Source: a virus
Strand: one strand, 5' to 3'
Virus record (IMG/VR): IMGVR_UViG_3300037245_000806
Span: 79,034-143,033 of that record
DNA: 64,000 nt
Shown: positions 21,841 through 55,985 of the stretch, piece by piece
Position numbering within the stretch: the stretch's first letter is position 1
How the letters are laid out: each line of letters begins with the position of its first letter
Translations under genes and position numbers: made by a program
Notes under the pieces: generated by a model
What the model was told of the DNA's origin: nothing
Seen by the model: only the letters and a program-made list of their open reading frames with translations
Databases searched by the model: none

Positions 21841-21869
21841 AGGATAGGTGAGCCTTAACACAGTGTCAA
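21841..21869 (-). promoter_or_regulatory. Promoter P8 for the 2081-aa ORF, overlapped by the operator
   Basis: Coding-strand TTGACA (21864-21869), a 17-bp spacer, then TATCCT (21841-21846). The gene ATG is 43 bases downstream. The -35 box lies inside the 13-bp palindrome, so a bound protein would block RNA polymerase. The A-tract seen upstream of other promoters in this window is weak here. Confidence 0.7.
21856..21868. promoter_or_regulatory. 13-bp palindromic repeat, copy 3, over the P8 -35 box
   Basis: TAACACAGTGTCA on the plus strand, so the coding strand reads TGACACTGTGTTA with TTGACA embedded. It also overlaps the stop codon of the HNH gene that ends at 21866. Orientation relative to transcription is opposite to the junction copies. 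Confidence 0.75.
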
Positions 21870-22378
21870 GCGACATGTTGCCACGATTTGCGCGTGACAA
21901 CGGCACTGATTGCACCGAGACTTACAAGGTATTCCGCAGCAAGATCAGCGTATGTTACGCCACCAACGGCATAGAGCGCCCTGATTTCTTTGACGTCACA
22001 CGCGGTCAACTTGGAGCCATAATTCTTTTCACCCACGTTGTTTTGCAAGACAATGGCGCTATGCCTTTGGTTGTCTTCGGGTGTCGCGTACTCAAGGTTC
22101 ACCAAGCGACAGTCAGCCTTAATGCCGTTTATGTGGTTCACGTGGTAGCCCCAAGGGCATGGGCCGATGAACGCGGCGGCTACCTGTTGATGCACCTGAA
22201 CTGTTTCAGCCATCCCGTCCACACTGAAGTCCAGATGCAAATAACCAGTGCTCAGATTAACATGCGTCTTTAGAATACCGCCGTTGGTCCTCTTGCGCGC
22301 GATACTGAAAATCCGACCTAAATCTGAAATACGGTAGTAGCCCACGTACCCTACAACGTCCTCCCAGAGTTCGACCAA
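21866..22378 (-). CDS. NUMOD4/HNH homing endonuclease
   Basis: 170 residues starting at TTG 22378, supported by GGGAGG 6 bases upstream. The N-terminal ELWEDVVGYVGYYRISDLG is a NUMOD4 domain. HVNHINGIKADCRLVNLEY followed by EDNQRH is the HNH core. The C-terminal about 50 residues look like a NUMOD helix-turn-helix for DNA recognition (LTACDVKEIRALYAVGG..YADLA). Such genes are free-standing mobile elements in phages. Base composition looks less GC-rich than its neighbours. It sits between the 141-aa gene and the giant ORF, ending within promoter P8. Confidence 0.92.
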   Translation of the reverse strand: MVELWEDVVGYVGYYRISDLGRIFSIARKRTNGGILKTHVNLSTGYLHLDFSVDGMAETVQVHQQVAAAFIGPCPWGYHVNHINGIKADCRLVNLEYATPEDNQRHSAIVLQNNVGEKNYGSKLTACDVKEIRALYAVGGVTYADLAAEYLVSLGAISAVVTRKSWQHVA

Positions 22379-26085: not shown

Positions 26086-26970
26086 CTAGCAGCGGAAGTC
26101 CGACCGCACGAGTTGCTCCTGCCTCGCCTCGCGCTTCAACGCGTAGGCACCTTCAGACTTCTGCACCTTGGCGTTGCACTCGTCGATCTTCTCGGCGAGG
26201 TCACTGAAGACTGAAGGCCACCGCTCAGCGAAGACGCGGAGCACGTTCTGCGCGATGCCCCTGATCTCCCACTGCGCGCGCGGGTTCAGGCCCCGGTGCT
26301 CGAAGATGTGCCGCCACGTGTGGAAATTGAAGGTAGCGGCGACCTCTGTCTTCGTCTCGTTGGGGAGCTTGAAGCGGGCGTCCTCTGCCTTGAAGCCCGC
26401 CTTGTCGCGCCACCACAGGTACTTCAGGTACGCATCGCGACAGTCGGAGAGCCACTGGAACTTGAGAAGCTCCTGCGTGGGTGTGGTGTTGAGCGCGTAT
26501 ATCGACTCACCACTCTCATGGGACCACCTCGGTGAGCCCTCACAAGCGCCGTGCTCGATGGCACCGAACTCCCACCGTCCGGTCGCGAGCGGCATCGGCT
26601 GCGCGGGCACCACGGCAAAGCCCTTCTTGCCGTAGTCACAGTACCTCTGGGACTCCTGCGAGTACGCAGCAATCCGGTGCCTGACGAGTTGATGCGACAT
26701 CGCACGCGAACCCGTCCAGACGACCGACGCCGTGGCATGCTCGATCATGGAGGTATGCCCCATGTCACGGCAGAAGCGCGCGACGAAGTCGGGTGCCGAG
26801 CCGGGTGCAATCTTGTGCTCCGACTTATAGCAGCGCCGCCCGGCGTTCTCGATAAGCTCGACCAGCCCGCTCGTCCAGCCATCCGGCGTGAGCACCTCAA
26901 ACGTCGGCGCGTGTACCGTCAGCACATCACCCTTCTTGGGCTCCATCACTGCGTCTTGTTTCTCGTCCAC
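26086..26970 (-). CDS. thyX: Flavin-dependent thymidylate synthase ThyX
   Basis: 294 residues from GTG 26970, with GGGAGGAG upstream. The signature RHRIAAYSQESQRY near residue 97 matches the ThyX motif RHRxxxxSxxSxRY. GHTSMIEHA and the C-terminal NPRAQWEIRG helix are also family features. ThyX makes dTMP from dUMP using methylene-tetrahydrofolate, FAD and NADPH. The C-terminus is somewhat longer than usual. Together with thymidylate kinase it supports phage dTTP synthesis. Confidence 0.95.
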   Translation of the reverse strand: MDEKQDAVMEPKKGDVLTVHAPTFEVLTPDGWTSGLVELIENAGRRCYKSEHKIAPGSAPDFVARFCRDMGHTSMIEHATASVVWTGSRAMSHQLVRHRIAAYSQESQRYCDYGKKGFAVVPAQPMPLATGRWEFGAIEHGACEGSPRWSHESGESIYALNTTPTQELLKFQWLSDCRDAYLKYLWWRDKAGFKAEDARFKLPNETKTEVAATFNFHTWRHIFEHRGLNPRAQWEIRGIAQNVLRVFAERWPSVFSDLAEKIDECNAKVQKSEGAYALKREARQEQLVRSDFRC

Positions 26971-47597: not shown

Positions 47598-48740
47598 CTA
47601 CTCCTCAGTCTCGTCCTCGGTCTCAGGCTTGTGCTTGCTGGCGGCATCGGCGACGTGCTCTTTGAACGCCTTGAGCGCGGCCTTGCCAGCCTTGGTCTTG
47701 TCGTCCAACTCGGGCGGGAACGGCGAGTCAATTGCGCCCCGATCCCACAGGAGGGTCGCCGCGACGGCACAACTCACGTGATACTCGGTCGTGCCGATCT
47801 CGTCGCCCTTCGCCTTGTGTACGATATCGCTGACCAGCCGTAGCATCGTCTCCTTCTCACGGCTGCCCTTCCGCACCTTGAGGGCGGCATCGCGAGCCGC
47901 ACCCTTGAGGTGCTGCGCGGACTTGCCCGGCGTGGGGGCGTTGTCCGCTTTCGCGGTCTTCTTGGCGAGCTTCTTGATGGCTGCCGCAGACATGCCGGGC
48001 TCAAGCGCGTCCTTGAACTCCTGCTTGCCACGCGTCTTGCCGTCAACCTTCGTCAGTTCGAGACCGGCGATGAGCGACATCGCGCCCGACTCGACGTGCT
48101 CCTGCACATCCTTCGGTGCGCCCATCAGCGTCATACACCTGCGAATCTTGCTGACGTGTAGCCCCGTCTCCTGCGCGATGCGGGGGAAGCCCCACTCGTG
48201 CTTCGTGGCGAGTTCGTTGACGACGCGCCCGATTTCTATCGGGTTCAGGTTCGTCCTGCCCTCTTCCGAGTTCTCAGCGACAGCAACCGCGCGGGCGCTC
48301 GCATCTTCGGATTCGAGGTCCATACGTATCGTGACCGCAAGCTCAGTCAGGCCGAGCAGGTCACTGGCGCGCAGACGACGCTCACCGGCGACGAGCAGGA
48401 AGGAGCCGGGCTTGTCGAGCGCGGGCCGCACGACGAGAGGGCTGAGCAGGCCGTTCTTCTTGATGGACTTGGCGAGCGGTTCGAGGTCGGTGACCACGGT
48501 GCGGGGGTTGAACCCCTGCACGATCTTGATGACCTTGCGGGGCAACATCGTGACGATGGACCCCTTGCCCTTCAAGGCCTTCTTCACGTCGCCAACGGAC
48601 AGCGTCACGCCGTGTAGCTCGACCGGTACAACCGGCGCGGACTTCCCCGTCTTCGCAGCGTTACTCGGCTTGGCGACCGTCTTCTTCGCCACCTTCTTCT
48701 TCGCCACCTTCTTCTTCCCCGTCTTCTTCTCCACAGCCAT
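47598..48740 (-). CDS. ParB/KorB-like DNA-binding protein
   Basis: 380 residues. Residues 1-35 are a Lys/Ala-rich tail (KKTGKKKVAKKKVAKKTVAK). The ParB nucleotide-binding domain has NPRT (78-81), PLVVRP and the GERRLRAS box (119-126; canonical GERRxRA), plus AENSEEGRTNLNPIE (155-169; canonical ENxQRxDLNPIE). An HTH lies at 186-206 (FPRIAQETGLHVSKIRRCMT). No ParA gene is in the window. ParB proteins are CTP-dependent clamps that load at palindromic sites; KorB is a repressor version. Its own promoter carries the 13-bp palindrome and it ends in a terminator. Confidence 0.9.
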   Translation of the reverse strand: MAVEKKTGKKKVAKKKVAKKTVAKPSNAAKTGKSAPVVPVELHGVTLSVGDVKKALKGKGSIVTMLPRKVIKIVQGFNPRTVVTDLEPLAKSIKKNGLLSPLVVRPALDKPGSFLLVAGERRLRASDLLGLTELAVTIRMDLESEDASARAVAVAENSEEGRTNLNPIEIGRVVNELATKHEWGFPRIAQETGLHVSKIRRCMTLMGAPKDVQEHVESGAMSLIAGLELTKVDGKTRGKQEFKDALEPGMSAAAIKKLAKKTAKADNAPTPGKSAQHLKGAARDAALKVRKGSREKETMLRLVSDIVHKAKGDEIGTTEYHVSCAVAATLLWDRGAIDSPFPPELDDKTKAGKAALKAFKEHVADAASKHKPETEDETEE

Positions 48741-50514: not shown

Positions 50515-51774
<1,260 letters not shown>

Positions 51775-51825
51775 GATACAGTCCCTTCGTATGCCCTCTG
51801 TGGCCACTGTGTGCTTCTGTGGGCT

Positions 51826-52346: not shown

Positions 52347-52375
52347 GTAGTACCGCGAGTGACGCCCACCGTCAA
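52347..52375 (-). promoter_or_regulatory. Promoter P5
   Basis: Coding strand TTGACG (52370-52375), 17-bp spacer, TACTAC (52347-52352), preceded by GGGGAAAAACTAC. The -10 box is imperfect. It lies right at the end of the HNH gene and drives the 165-aa, SSB-like and RecA-like genes. Confidence 0.65.
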
Positions 52376-52854
52376 GTAGTTTTTCCCCGCCACACGATAT
52401 TCTTGCGTATGCCTTTGCGACGTTTGGCCAGCTTCGCGCTCTCGTCTTTGTGACACCAGACGCAGAGAGTCGCATACCCCTCCACGCCGCATGCACCACC
52501 ACCCTCTGACACCGACTTGACATGGTGTGCCTGCCACAGGCTCTTGAGTCCCTCATTGATCGTGAGCCCCAAGCGCCTGATCTCGGCATACAGCGCAGCA
52601 CCTCTAAAGGCACGCAACTCACGCTTGGCCTTGTTCGTGTCCTTGCCGCAGCGCGAGCAAACGCCCTTGTCCCGAAGCCACACAGCCCGGCGCACCCTAT
52701 GCCCACAGCGCACTTCGACCTCGCGTCGGCAGGCCGTCGAGCACCACGAGGTTCGCCTTCCGACGAGAGGCTCCTCGCACCATCGACAAAGCCATTGACC
52801 ATCATCGCTCTTCCTCTTCGGGTAGTCTTTCCACGACGCATACCGACTGGCCAC
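52372..52854 (-). CDS. HNH endonuclease
   Basis: 160 residues from GTG 52854, overlapping the polymerase stop (TAGTG). The N-terminus has two Cys knuckles (LCRWCEEP, WCSTACRRE), then VCSRCGKD. The HNH core is WQAHHVKSVSEGGGACGVEG followed by ATLCVWCHKDES, with the final CxxC and His. It may be a free-standing homing nuclease next to the polymerase gene, a frequent location, or a packaging-associated HNH nuclease. Confidence 0.9.
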   Translation of the reverse strand: MASRYASWKDYPKRKSDDGQWLCRWCEEPLVGRRTSWCSTACRREVEVRCGHRVRRAVWLRDKGVCSRCGKDTNKAKRELRAFRGAALYAEIRRLGLTINEGLKSLWQAHHVKSVSEGGGACGVEGYATLCVWCHKDESAKLAKRRKGIRKNIVWRGKTT

Positions 52855-55800
52855 TAGGCTACCTTCTTAGCCTTGAATTCCATCTGGTCCCACAGTTCGT
52901 CAACGTTCACGGGGTCGCGAGCGATCTCCGTGTTCTTCTTCTTGTACATGGCCTCGTCACTCTTACCGCCAGCCATGACAGCGTCAGGGTCGAACCCAAC
53001 GAGTGAGCCCCACGAGTGACCGACCTCGAAGTCAGCCACGATAGGCACTGTCAGCCATGACCAATCAAGGCCCGGCAGGACTTCCTCAGAAAGCTCAGGC
53101 AGATTCTGCATAACGTCCTTCGCGATCTTCGCAATCTCTAGGACTTCGTCCACGTGGCAGTCGAAGACAATCGAGTCGTGGACGGTAAGCACAATCTTCG
53201 ACTTGAAGCCCTCACTCTGCATAATCCGATGAATGAGCACGAGCGACATCAGCGTCATATCCGAGGCACCGCTTTGAATCGGGAAGTTGATCGACTGACG
53301 TAGCGCCCTCGATGCAAGCTCCTTGTGGCTGCTGAAGACCTCAGGCAACCGGCGCTTGCGCCCCGTGAAGGAAGTCAAGATACCGGTAATCGCGGCTTCT
53401 GCCTGATAGTCCTCGATACCCTGCTTCAAGCCGGGGCGCACACTGAAATAGTTGTCAATGAGTTCAGAGGTCTCATCGACAGTCATATGCACGCCGTCCT
53501 TCTTGAGCGTGCCGACGAGACCCGGAGGGCCAATGCCGTAGATAATGCCGAAGTTGACGCGCTTGGCCTTCGTGCGCATCTCCTTACGCTTCTTCTCAGG
53601 CAACGCCATGAACGCTTCGAGCGTCATGCCTGCAATGTCAGCCGCAGTCTGCGCGTGCAGGTCCACCCCGTTGCGGTACGCCTCAAGCATCTTCGGCGAA
53701 TGGAACCACGAAGCTGCAATACGAAGCTCAATCTGTGAGTAGTCAGCGTTGAGAATCACACCTTCATCACCGAAGCGCGAGACATACACAGGCTTCGCAG
53801 CCCTCGGGATGTTCTGGTTGTTGGGGTCCGCAGACGAGAGCCGCCCCGTCACAGTGCCGTGGGGCAGGAATGAACAATGCACCCGGCCCCACTTGTCCAA
53901 GCGATCCAACAGCGGCTTCACGAAGGTGCCGTAAAGAGTCTCGTACTTGCGGTACTTCAGAATGAGCGGTGAGAGGTTGTTGCCCTGACGCTCGTATTCG
54001 TGAAGCACGTCAGCCTTGGTCGTGAAGTATTCCCACTCCTTCTTCTCCACGGCCTGCTGTACCACCTCAGTAAAGCCAATAGCGGGTTGCTTCTGCCTCT
54101 TGCGTGCGGCATTGAGCTTCGCGTATCTGCTGCCGAGCCGTGAAAGTCCAGAGTCGGTAAGCTCGACCGGCTGAAGCTTGTAGTAGTCAAACAGCACCTT
54201 CCGCAGCTGTGTTGCCGAGCCGGGATTGAACTGGAAGATATCGCCCTTCTTCTTCCCGGTCTTCCCAGCCTTGATCTGACTCGCCACGAAAGCACGCACG
54301 CGCGGAAGCTTGGCTATCTGCTTCTTGTATTTGGCCATCTTGGCGCGGTACTCTGTGTCAAGCTTCTTCACCACGTCGGAGTCAACCTGCACCCCGGTGT
54401 ATTCGAGGTCGGACAGGACAACCGAAAGCTGCGGGAGGAATATCTCAGAAAGCCTCCGCAACGCTGCGTCTTCCTGATACTCGGCCTCGGCAATCAAGCC
54501 GTCATCCACGCGGTACGTCACGTCCGTGTCCATGCCCGCGTATGGGAAGAGGATTTTGCCGGGGATGTTCGCGTAACTGCCACCCTTCTTCGGGTCGCAT
54601 TCCTTGTGTGACTTGATGTACAATTCGAGCGGTCGCTCGTAGCCGCCCATGCCGGTATACAAGAACGCGAGCTTCTTCAAGCCGTGCGTCCCCCGGCGCT
54701 CGTCGAGGACAAGGTGCGTCAACATTGTGTCACGCAGGATGCCCCGTGGCGCTCGGCCAAGATTCTTGCGAATATGCTTCCGGTCGAACTTCTCATTCTG
54801 CGCAACCTTCGGAATGGACTCGTCAACGAAGAAGTCACGCAAGAGCTTCTTGAGCTTGGGGCGTTCACACTCCTTCGGGCCACCCATGCACCACGGGGAG
54901 TCAGCATGGTCGTAGGGAATCGTGTACCCAACGCCCGGCTTATCCGAGAAGCTCAAGCAAAGGAGCTTGGGGAACTCCTCGTCGAATGGTGATAGCGAGC
55001 CGGTCTCAGTGTCGAACGTGACCTTCTCAGCCTTCCTGAATTGTATCAGGAGCTTCCGCACGTCCTCAAGGTCAGTGAGTGTCTTGTAGTTGCCCGACCC
55101 AACGAGAGGCTCATAGCTGCCATTCAAATACGTGTTGAGAAGTACGAAGGTCTCCGCGAACTTCTCGGCGTGGTAATCAAAGCGCATGATGTACGCAGGA
55201 TGGAAGCACGCCAAGACGTCCTTGTTCTTCCACTCCGGGTGCGTTGACTTCATGAAGTGACCGGCGAACATCGTAATCCCGGCCTGTCCGCACAGGAATT
55301 CCATGCTGTAGTTGTCGAGAACAACAATGACCTCTGGTTGCCGTGCTTTGATCTCACGCATGAGTTCATACGAGCAACACTTGACCTCAGTCTTGCGCGG
55401 GTCTCGGTTTCTAGGTGGGCGGCACCTCACTACGTTGGTGTAAGCCACTTCCTCGGGGCTTACGTCGAGCCCCTCCGTTGCGGCCATCCTAATGATGTCA
55501 CCAGATTTCCCGACGAATGGCAGCCCCTTCGTATCCTCCTTGGCTCCGGGGGTCGAGCCGATAAAGAGCACACGCACCTTCTTCCATGGCTTGTCAACTA
55601 TGCCACGGGTCTTGATCGTGTACGGGTCTTTCTCCTTGGTGACGATCTTATCGGCGTCCCGACAATACGCGTCCTTGAAGGTGTCGAAGTCTTTATGAAA
55701 AGGCGCGAGCGGACACCATAGGCATCCGCTCTTGGCCTCTTCAGGGTCGGGTGCAATCAATGGGCGTGCCAACGTAGTATCGACGGTCTTCGCTGCGGCA

Positions 55801-55985
55801 ACACACTTCTTCTTCTTCCTCGCGGCACCAGCTATCTTCGCCCTCTTGGTCTTGCGTACCACGCCGACCGACTTCTTCTTGCGCACAACGCCAGACGACT
55901 TCTTCTTGCGCACAACGCCAGACGACTTCTTCTTGACTTTACCCGCTGACTTACGCAGCGCAGCAACTCTGGCGCTAAGGCTCAT
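52854..55985 (-). CDS. DNA polymerase I (family A) fused to a family-4 uracil-DNA glycosylase-like domain
   Basis: 1043 residues. Residues 1-66 are a Lys-rich tail with three KKKSxGVVR repeats. Residues 85-290 form a UDG domain: C88/C91 and C188/C203 or C204 match the Fe-S ligands of family-4 UDGs, the active-site loop is GSTPGAKEDTKGLPFVG (143-159; family form GEAPG), and FHPAY (261-265) is the HPx motif. An exonuclease domain starts at TFDTETGS (323-330). Polymerase motifs A (DYSQIELRIAA), B (KRVNFGIIYG) and C (VHDSIVFD) are intact. There is no 5'-nuclease domain; that is encoded separately. SPO1-type phages are recalled to have a related fusion. Confidence 0.95.
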   Translation of the reverse strand: MSLSARVAALRKSAGKVKKKSSGVVRKKKSSGVVRKKKSVGVVRKTKRAKIAGAARKKKKCVAAAKTVDTTLARPLIAPDPEEAKSGCLWCPLAPFHKDFDTFKDAYCRDADKIVTKEKDPYTIKTRGIVDKPWKKVRVLFIGSTPGAKEDTKGLPFVGKSGDIIRMAATEGLDVSPEEVAYTNVVRCRPPRNRDPRKTEVKCCSYELMREIKARQPEVIVVLDNYSMEFLCGQAGITMFAGHFMKSTHPEWKNKDVLACFHPAYIMRFDYHAEKFAETFVLLNTYLNGSYEPLVGSGNYKTLTDLEDVRKLLIQFRKAEKVTFDTETGSLSPFDEEFPKLLCLSFSDKPGVGYTIPYDHADSPWCMGGPKECERPKLKKLLRDFFVDESIPKVAQNEKFDRKHIRKNLGRAPRGILRDTMLTHLVLDERRGTHGLKKLAFLYTGMGGYERPLELYIKSHKECDPKKGGSYANIPGKILFPYAGMDTDVTYRVDDGLIAEAEYQEDAALRRLSEIFLPQLSVVLSDLEYTGVQVDSDVVKKLDTEYRAKMAKYKKQIAKLPRVRAFVASQIKAGKTGKKKGDIFQFNPGSATQLRKVLFDYYKLQPVELTDSGLSRLGSRYAKLNAARKRQKQPAIGFTEVVQQAVEKKEWEYFTTKADVLHEYERQGNNLSPLILKYRKYETLYGTFVKPLLDRLDKWGRVHCSFLPHGTVTGRLSSADPNNQNIPRAAKPVYVSRFGDEGVILNADYSQIELRIAASWFHSPKMLEAYRNGVDLHAQTAADIAGMTLEAFMALPEKKRKEMRTKAKRVNFGIIYGIGPPGLVGTLKKDGVHMTVDETSELIDNYFSVRPGLKQGIEDYQAEAAITGILTSFTGRKRRLPEVFSSHKELASRALRQSINFPIQSGASDMTLMSLVLIHRIMQSEGFKSKIVLTVHDSIVFDCHVDEVLEIAKIAKDVMQNLPELSEEVLPGLDWSWLTVPIVADFEVGHSWGSLVGFDPDAVMAGGKSDEAMYKKKNTEIARDPVNVDELWDQMEFKAKKVA

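Follow-up and report, generated by a model that had tools for sequence, protein, structure and literature searches.

Polymerases in which a uracil-DNA glycosylase (UDG) domain is fused to a family A DNA polymerase (PolA) are already known and common, with SPO1 gp31 and the proteins of many other phages as examples. Here we describe one such fusion in a virus record of 143,033 bases (IMG/VR IMGVR_UViG_3300037245_000806), of which we analyzed a stretch of 64,000 nucleotides (bases 79034 to 143033 of the record; referred to here as the window). The fused architecture is part of PHROG 17. Full-length relatives of the window polymerase occur in SPO1, phi18, LysYB1, and EalM132, and more distant ones occur in Serratia, Pseudomonas, Brevundimonas, Rhizobium, and Microcystis phages, and among predicted structures of viral proteins there are also the polymerases from SP-15, EFLK1, and Porthos, among others. 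The survey of phage PolA fusions that had been proposed in a preliminary description of this DNA, made from the letters alone, thus found an architecture that is widespread and previously known. Some solved structures of the enzyme UdgX carry the PDB name "Phage SPO1 DNA polymerase-related protein." Although UDG-PolA fusions have been apparent ever since SPO1, no functional study of the UDG domain in them turned up in our literature search, which had limited reach into subscription journals. In poxviruses, the UDG of the polymerase holoenzyme has a sliding-clamp-like role and retains its glycosylase activity (PMC10115419).

A family 4-type UDG domain in the window polymerase

The window polymerase is encoded by a single open reading frame (ORF) of 1043 aa (52854 to 55985, minus strand, as are all features of this gene given below), which runs from 55985 to 52854, begins with ATG, and has GGAGGGG upstream of its start. 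Residue numbers refer to this protein and nucleotide positions to the window. The chain consists of a UDG domain, a 3'-5' exonuclease domain, and a family A polymerase domain, in that order. This architecture was supported by the ORF itself, by Pfam, by a PHROG 17 match spanning residues 71 to 1008 (E = 4e-144), by relatives that align co-linearly, and by a full-length AlphaFold2 model (pLDDT, 89.9; pTM, 0.86). The identical gene also lies on another IMG/VR contig, with 1 mismatch over ~12.7 kb; as this second contig may derive from the same sample or a sister one, it provides only weak independent confirmation. A chance match or an assembly artefact was ruled out by the Pfam scores, the model confidence, and the second contig. 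The UDG-PolA fusion in the window is real, and the preliminary description had it right. The fused gene was the sole UDG match across the 143-kb record.

The UDG domain as modelled comprises residues 80 to 305 (55071 to 55748), within which the Pfam UDG match covers residues 136 to 272 (E = 1.4e-23). AlphaFold2, given 40 natural sequences, predicted the fold of this domain with high confidence (pLDDT, 94.9; pTM, 0.91). The top Foldseek matches of the model were family 4 UDGs (4zbx, 1.3e-13; 1ui1, 1.7e-13; the Thermotoga enzyme as well), followed by UdgX and then by the phage polymerase 9QHS. A phmmer search with the domain also retrieved the family 4 UDGs of Sulfolobus (4ZBX, 6.5e-25) and Thermus (1UI0, 7e-23). 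Structure prediction against family 4 UDGs, which had been put forward as a check, therefore bore the assignment out, and by both methods the UDG superfamily fold of the window domain is nearest to family 4.

Most of the active-site residues are unchanged relative to family 4. The four predicted Fe-S ligand cysteines align with the family 4 ligand positions: Cys88 and Cys91 (CLWC; 55713 to 55724), both kept in all 22 relatives whose sequence covers them; Cys188; and Cys204 (55374 to 55376), kept in 23 of 23. Asn184, at the position of the uracil-binding Asn, lies close to Cys188 and to the CRPPRN segment with Asn193 (all within 55407 to 55436), and Phe157 (PFVG) is also present. Motif B reads HPAYIMR (residues 262 to 268; 55182 to 55202), in agreement with the family 4 pattern HP[AS]xxxR, and includes His262 and Arg268. 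Motif A is the exception. Residues 143 to 151 read GSTPGAKED (55533 to 55559), as against GE[AG]PGxxED in family 4; Pro146, Gly147, Glu150, and Asp151 are unchanged, while Glu is replaced by Ser144 and Ala/Gly by Thr145 (codons TCG and ACC), and the sequence does not conform to GE[AG]PG. The preliminary description had reported intact cysteines, an intact HPA motif, the GxxPG..ED loop, and S-T where family 4 has E-A, all of which we recovered. Two further conserved positions are altered: His122, present in 23 of 23 relatives, is Tyr in the window (approximately 55620 to 55622), and Gly224, present in 22 of 23, is Asp (approximately 55314 to 55316). Altogether, the window departs at 10 of 66 strongly conserved domain positions.

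Conservation of the catalytic site in relatives

A first scan of IMG/VR was based on polymerase and exonuclease motifs, hence involved no selection on the UDG site, and retained 80 loci. Fourteen of these were close relatives (44 to 61% identity to the window), and in nine of the 14, all 17 tracked pocket and Fe-S positions were intact within the reach of their contigs. A second scan used UDG-domain patterns, which biases it toward intact sites, and extended the clade to 24 distinct members including the window; with both scans taken together and the window counted, 15 of 24 had a fully intact site. Among the 201 domain positions compared in the clade, 14 of the 17 pocket and Fe-S positions fell within the 50 most conserved (hypergeometric P = 2.8e-7). 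Judged from the alignment, this enrichment indicates that selection acts on the UDG pocket across the clade as a whole.

The window was the sole clade member of the 24 without Glu or Asp at the acidic position of motif A; three members (L029, L110, and L124) have Asp in place of Glu. Losses were spread over the clade: the His of motif B was lost in L034 and L035, and the uracil-binding Asn was lost in these two as well as in L107 and L110. Despite the loss of the motif B His, L034 and L035 retain the domain and its four cysteines. The clade thereby offers a natural comparison set at ~50 to 60% identity, with an intact site in L027 and L026, the Glu lost in the window, and the His lost in L035. 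L027 reads GEAPG, but its contig misses the extreme N terminus, whereas L026 is complete.

Beyond the clade, the 56 first-scan loci that received a label (set by eye) comprised 38 intact, 6 altered, and 12 lost sites. An approximate, quickly built tree of 78 sequences required at least 18 changes between the intact and non-intact states. Motif A was uniformly degenerate in Spounavirinae and in a Pseudomonas/Serratia group. Loss of the catalytic loop in relatives, which the preliminary description had held would speak against its proposal, is therefore a feature of SPO1-type and Pseudomonas/Serratia phages and not of the close clade, where 9 of 14 sites are intact. A further contig scan yielded 80 loci, none with an open frame longer than 543 aa, which is not long enough to encode the fusion. 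GEAPG was present in 79 of these 80 loci, but because the pattern used in the scan favored G[ES]APG, this was not taken as a control. What is new here is the conservation survey, together with the finding that the family 4 site is largely intact in the close clade and that the window loop is a singular departure.

Nucleotide metabolism genes and the modified-base question

The phage encodes ThyX (26086 to 26970; E = 3.9e-40), as the preliminary description had noted, and a thymidylate kinase is also present. ThyX was carried by six of the nine clade records tested. In the records of L030, L035, and L129 (G001, G003, and G033), the ThyX match was found in two pieces inside unusually long frames (402 to 520 aa), which suggests an insertion within ThyX. 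Replication-related genes in the window record include those for a DnaB-type helicase, RecA, a 5'-3' exonuclease, a ParB-like protein, and an HU-like protein. Searches of the 143-kb record found no thymidylate synthase/hydroxymethylase (PF00303), no dUTPase (PF00692, PF08761), no dCMP deaminase (PF00383), and no AP endonuclease of PF01261 (other AP endonuclease families were not searched). The preliminary description had raised the recognition of a modified base; the gene content of this record, which may be incomplete, lends that idea no support.

The picture differs in some distant relatives. Motif A reads x[ED]NP in place of GEAP in two separate lineages, namely, Spounavirinae and the Pseudomonas/Serratia group (L003, L004, L006, L017, L018, L021, and L040), and nearly all tested fusions from these two combine a degenerate loop with a hydroxymethylase homolog. 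In several phages, the homolog accompanies a motif A that is intact (L056, L057, L063, L069, and ctfzr933). A tree-aware test of the association had only four to five independent pairs and was not significant. The link of degenerate loops to hydroxymethylase homologs is suggestive, and we base no claim on it.

Possible functions of the domain

We favor, with a probability of roughly 0.47, the reading that the clade has a family 4-type UDG within its polymerase that works as a glycosylase or a reader, and that the window carries an impaired but DNA-gripping copy. The module, of family 4 (Fe-S) type, is built into the replicative polymerase immediately ahead of the proofreading exonuclease and would generally serve the clade as a glycosylase or reader of uracil that is tethered to the polymerase and binds DNA near the fork. 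It would flip out and hold a uracil, whether from misincorporated dUMP or from deamination of C, and then excise it. In the window copy, Ser144 takes the place of the predicted water-activating Glu, with Thr for the neighboring Ala/Gly, while the uracil-binding Asn, the motif B His, and the Fe-S site are kept; most likely, this combination leaves a glycosylase that is weak or impaired in catalysis but could still grip DNA and bind uracil. Its main role may be in DNA binding, processivity, or stalling.

The expected impairment is drawn from UdgX, in which E52 pairs with His109 in a dyad or, where another residue has taken the place of His109, activates water; adding E52N to the H109S enzyme lowers kcat/Km ~75-fold, and E52 is conserved in family 4 according to the same study (PMC10359453). 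Ser144 of the window occupies the equivalent position, and by transfer from UdgX, the window enzyme should be weakened for uracil hydrolysis. Uracil binding would not necessarily be weakened, because Asn184, Phe157, and His262 remain. The earlier suggestion that the domain may be active is supported as far as the domain, its cysteines, and motif B are concerned, but the position of the lost Glu is not a neutral one: its replacement has a cost in UdgX, and of the 24 members the window alone has no acidic residue there.

A role beyond catalysis is proposed because L034 and L035 keep the fold and cysteines without the motif B His, which suggests a second, non-catalytic use. The poxvirus holoenzyme UDG is, by analogy, a precedent for a polymerase-bound UDG with a clamp-like role. 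The record yielded no sliding clamp of bacterial type, the one clamp type searched for. If even broken members need the domain, a non-catalytic role would be implied, such as poxvirus UDG has beside its glycosylase activity; if intact members do excise uracil while copying, a single chain would join base excision to a replicative polymerase.

Several considerations weigh against the impaired but DNA-gripping copy. The effect of losing the Glu is borrowed from UdgX, a related but different enzyme, and a water might be held by Ser or Thr instead. The poxvirus example goes no further than analogy, and gene absences carry little weight in a record that may be incomplete. The analysis shows the domains, the predicted fold, the residues, and their conservation; from these we infer enzymatic activity, uracil binding, a position at the fork, and any effect on processivity.

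The foremost alternative, which we still consider unlikely, is a fully active UDG in which Ser144 and Thr145 are tolerated and uracil is excised during copying. Such an enzyme would be useful to a phage that makes dTMP through ThyX and whose record yielded no dUTPase, and it would fit the retention of the remaining pocket residues, motif B, and cysteines, the high-confidence predicted fold, and the intact site of most relatives. However, the other 23 clade members all have Glu or Asp at this position, and UdgX pays a high price for a replacement there; the conserved His122 and Gly224 positions are altered as well; and excision products would need host enzymes because the record has no PF01261 AP endonuclease (again, other families were not searched). 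Only slightly less probable is that the clade, a large and little-described one, has an active onboard glycosylase and that the window loop, along with the changes at His122 and Gly224, was remodelled into a non-cutting reader of uracil or another template base that controls the polymerase.

Rather doubtful is a decaying remnant, in which the domain would be a structural part only, would bind no uracil, and would be irrelevant to replication. Repeated erosion of the site (at least 18 changes among the 78 sequences of the tree) and the 10 departures among 66 strongly conserved positions point in this direction, but the rest of the pocket, the four cysteines, and motif B are intact in the window, and a relic would be expected to lose those too, as L034 and SPO1 partly have. 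More improbable still is a loop change that retunes the domain so that it recognizes or excises some modified or damaged base instead of uracil. TDG, MUG, and SMUG1 have Asn in motif A (positions 2 to 3). Positions 2 and 3 of this motif differ among UDG families, with Gln in UdgX (PMC10359453), the fold-matching phage polymerase 9QHS was solved with a modified template, and fused domains with altered loops (xxNP) occur in phages with a thymidylate synthase/hydroxymethylase homolog. Against this, the window record has no such homolog, so there is no sign of a modified thymine, and the loop-hydroxymethylase association amounts to about two lineages, has intact-loop counterexamples, and is not significant on the tree.

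Other features of the polymerase gene and the window

The 3'-5' exonuclease domain (residues 300 to 497; 54495 to 55088) matches Pfam DNA_pol_A_exo1 (8.2e-17), and the family A polymerase domain (residues 645 to 993; 53007 to 54053) matches Pfam DNA_pol_A (1.3e-80) and, in the model, the Klenow fold. Exonuclease residues Asp325, Glu327, and Asp486 and polymerase residue Asp748 are invariant columns in two alignments of relatives; His936 and Asp937 of the polymerase are invariant in one and at least 90% conserved in the other. All of these catalytic residues are present in the window protein. The N-terminal tail (residues 1 to 70; 55776 to 55985) is lysine rich, contains three KKKSSGVVR near-repeats, and is probably disordered (pLDDT of <50 for residues 1 to 60). 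Lysine-rich repetitive tails (KKKSSGVVR, KKKVAKK, and similar) are found on the polymerase, the ParB-like protein, and an unknown protein (55776 to 55985, 47598 to 48740, and 50515 to 51807, all on the minus strand).

A weak HNH endonuclease match, under the Pfam cutoff, lies at 52372 to 52854 (minus strand) and is perhaps a homing endonuclease. It abuts the 3' end of the polymerase gene; in SPO1, a homing endonuclease sits within the intron of the polymerase gene. A NUMOD4/HNH homing endonuclease is encoded elsewhere in the window (21866 to 22378, minus strand).

Comparison with known systems

The poxvirus D4/E4 UDG resembles the window domain in belonging to a viral replicative polymerase (PMC10115419), but it is a separate subunit connected by the A20/A22 bridge to a family B polymerase, and the two are likened by function alone. 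UdgX of Mycobacterium smegmatis shares the superfamily fold with the window domain. It has GEQPG and a KRRIH loop with the covalent His109, where the window has GSTPG and CRPPRNRDP with no such His; a UdgX-type covalent enzyme was rejected for lack of this His. The family A DNA polymerase of phiLo (PDB 9QHS; 2026) appears to be a solved example of a UDG-PolA fusion. Its N-terminal region matches the window UDG by sequence (1.4e-5) and by fold (1.1e-6), at a distance of 24% identity across the aligned domain.

The family 4 UDGs (Thermus 1UI0, Thermotoga 1L9G, and Sulfolobus 4ZBX) share with the window the fold, the four cysteines, PFVG, the Asn, CRPPxN, HPAY, and the Arg. The window differs from them in its fusion to a polymerase, in GSTPG for GE[AG]PG, and in a longer stretch from the second Cys to motif A. 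The SPO1 gp31 type (Spounavirinae, PHROG 17) has the same organization as the window protein, with UDG, exonuclease, and PolA in this order in one chain, and its best polymerases are 30 to 34% identical to the window protein over 84% of its length. Unlike the window, Spounavirinae have a degenerate motif A (QENPF, ADNPT, or QDSPL) and have lost the uracil-binding Asn; SPO1 and phi18 additionally lack the last two cysteines. The window keeps the Asn and the cysteines and lacks, of motif A, just the Glu and the Ala.

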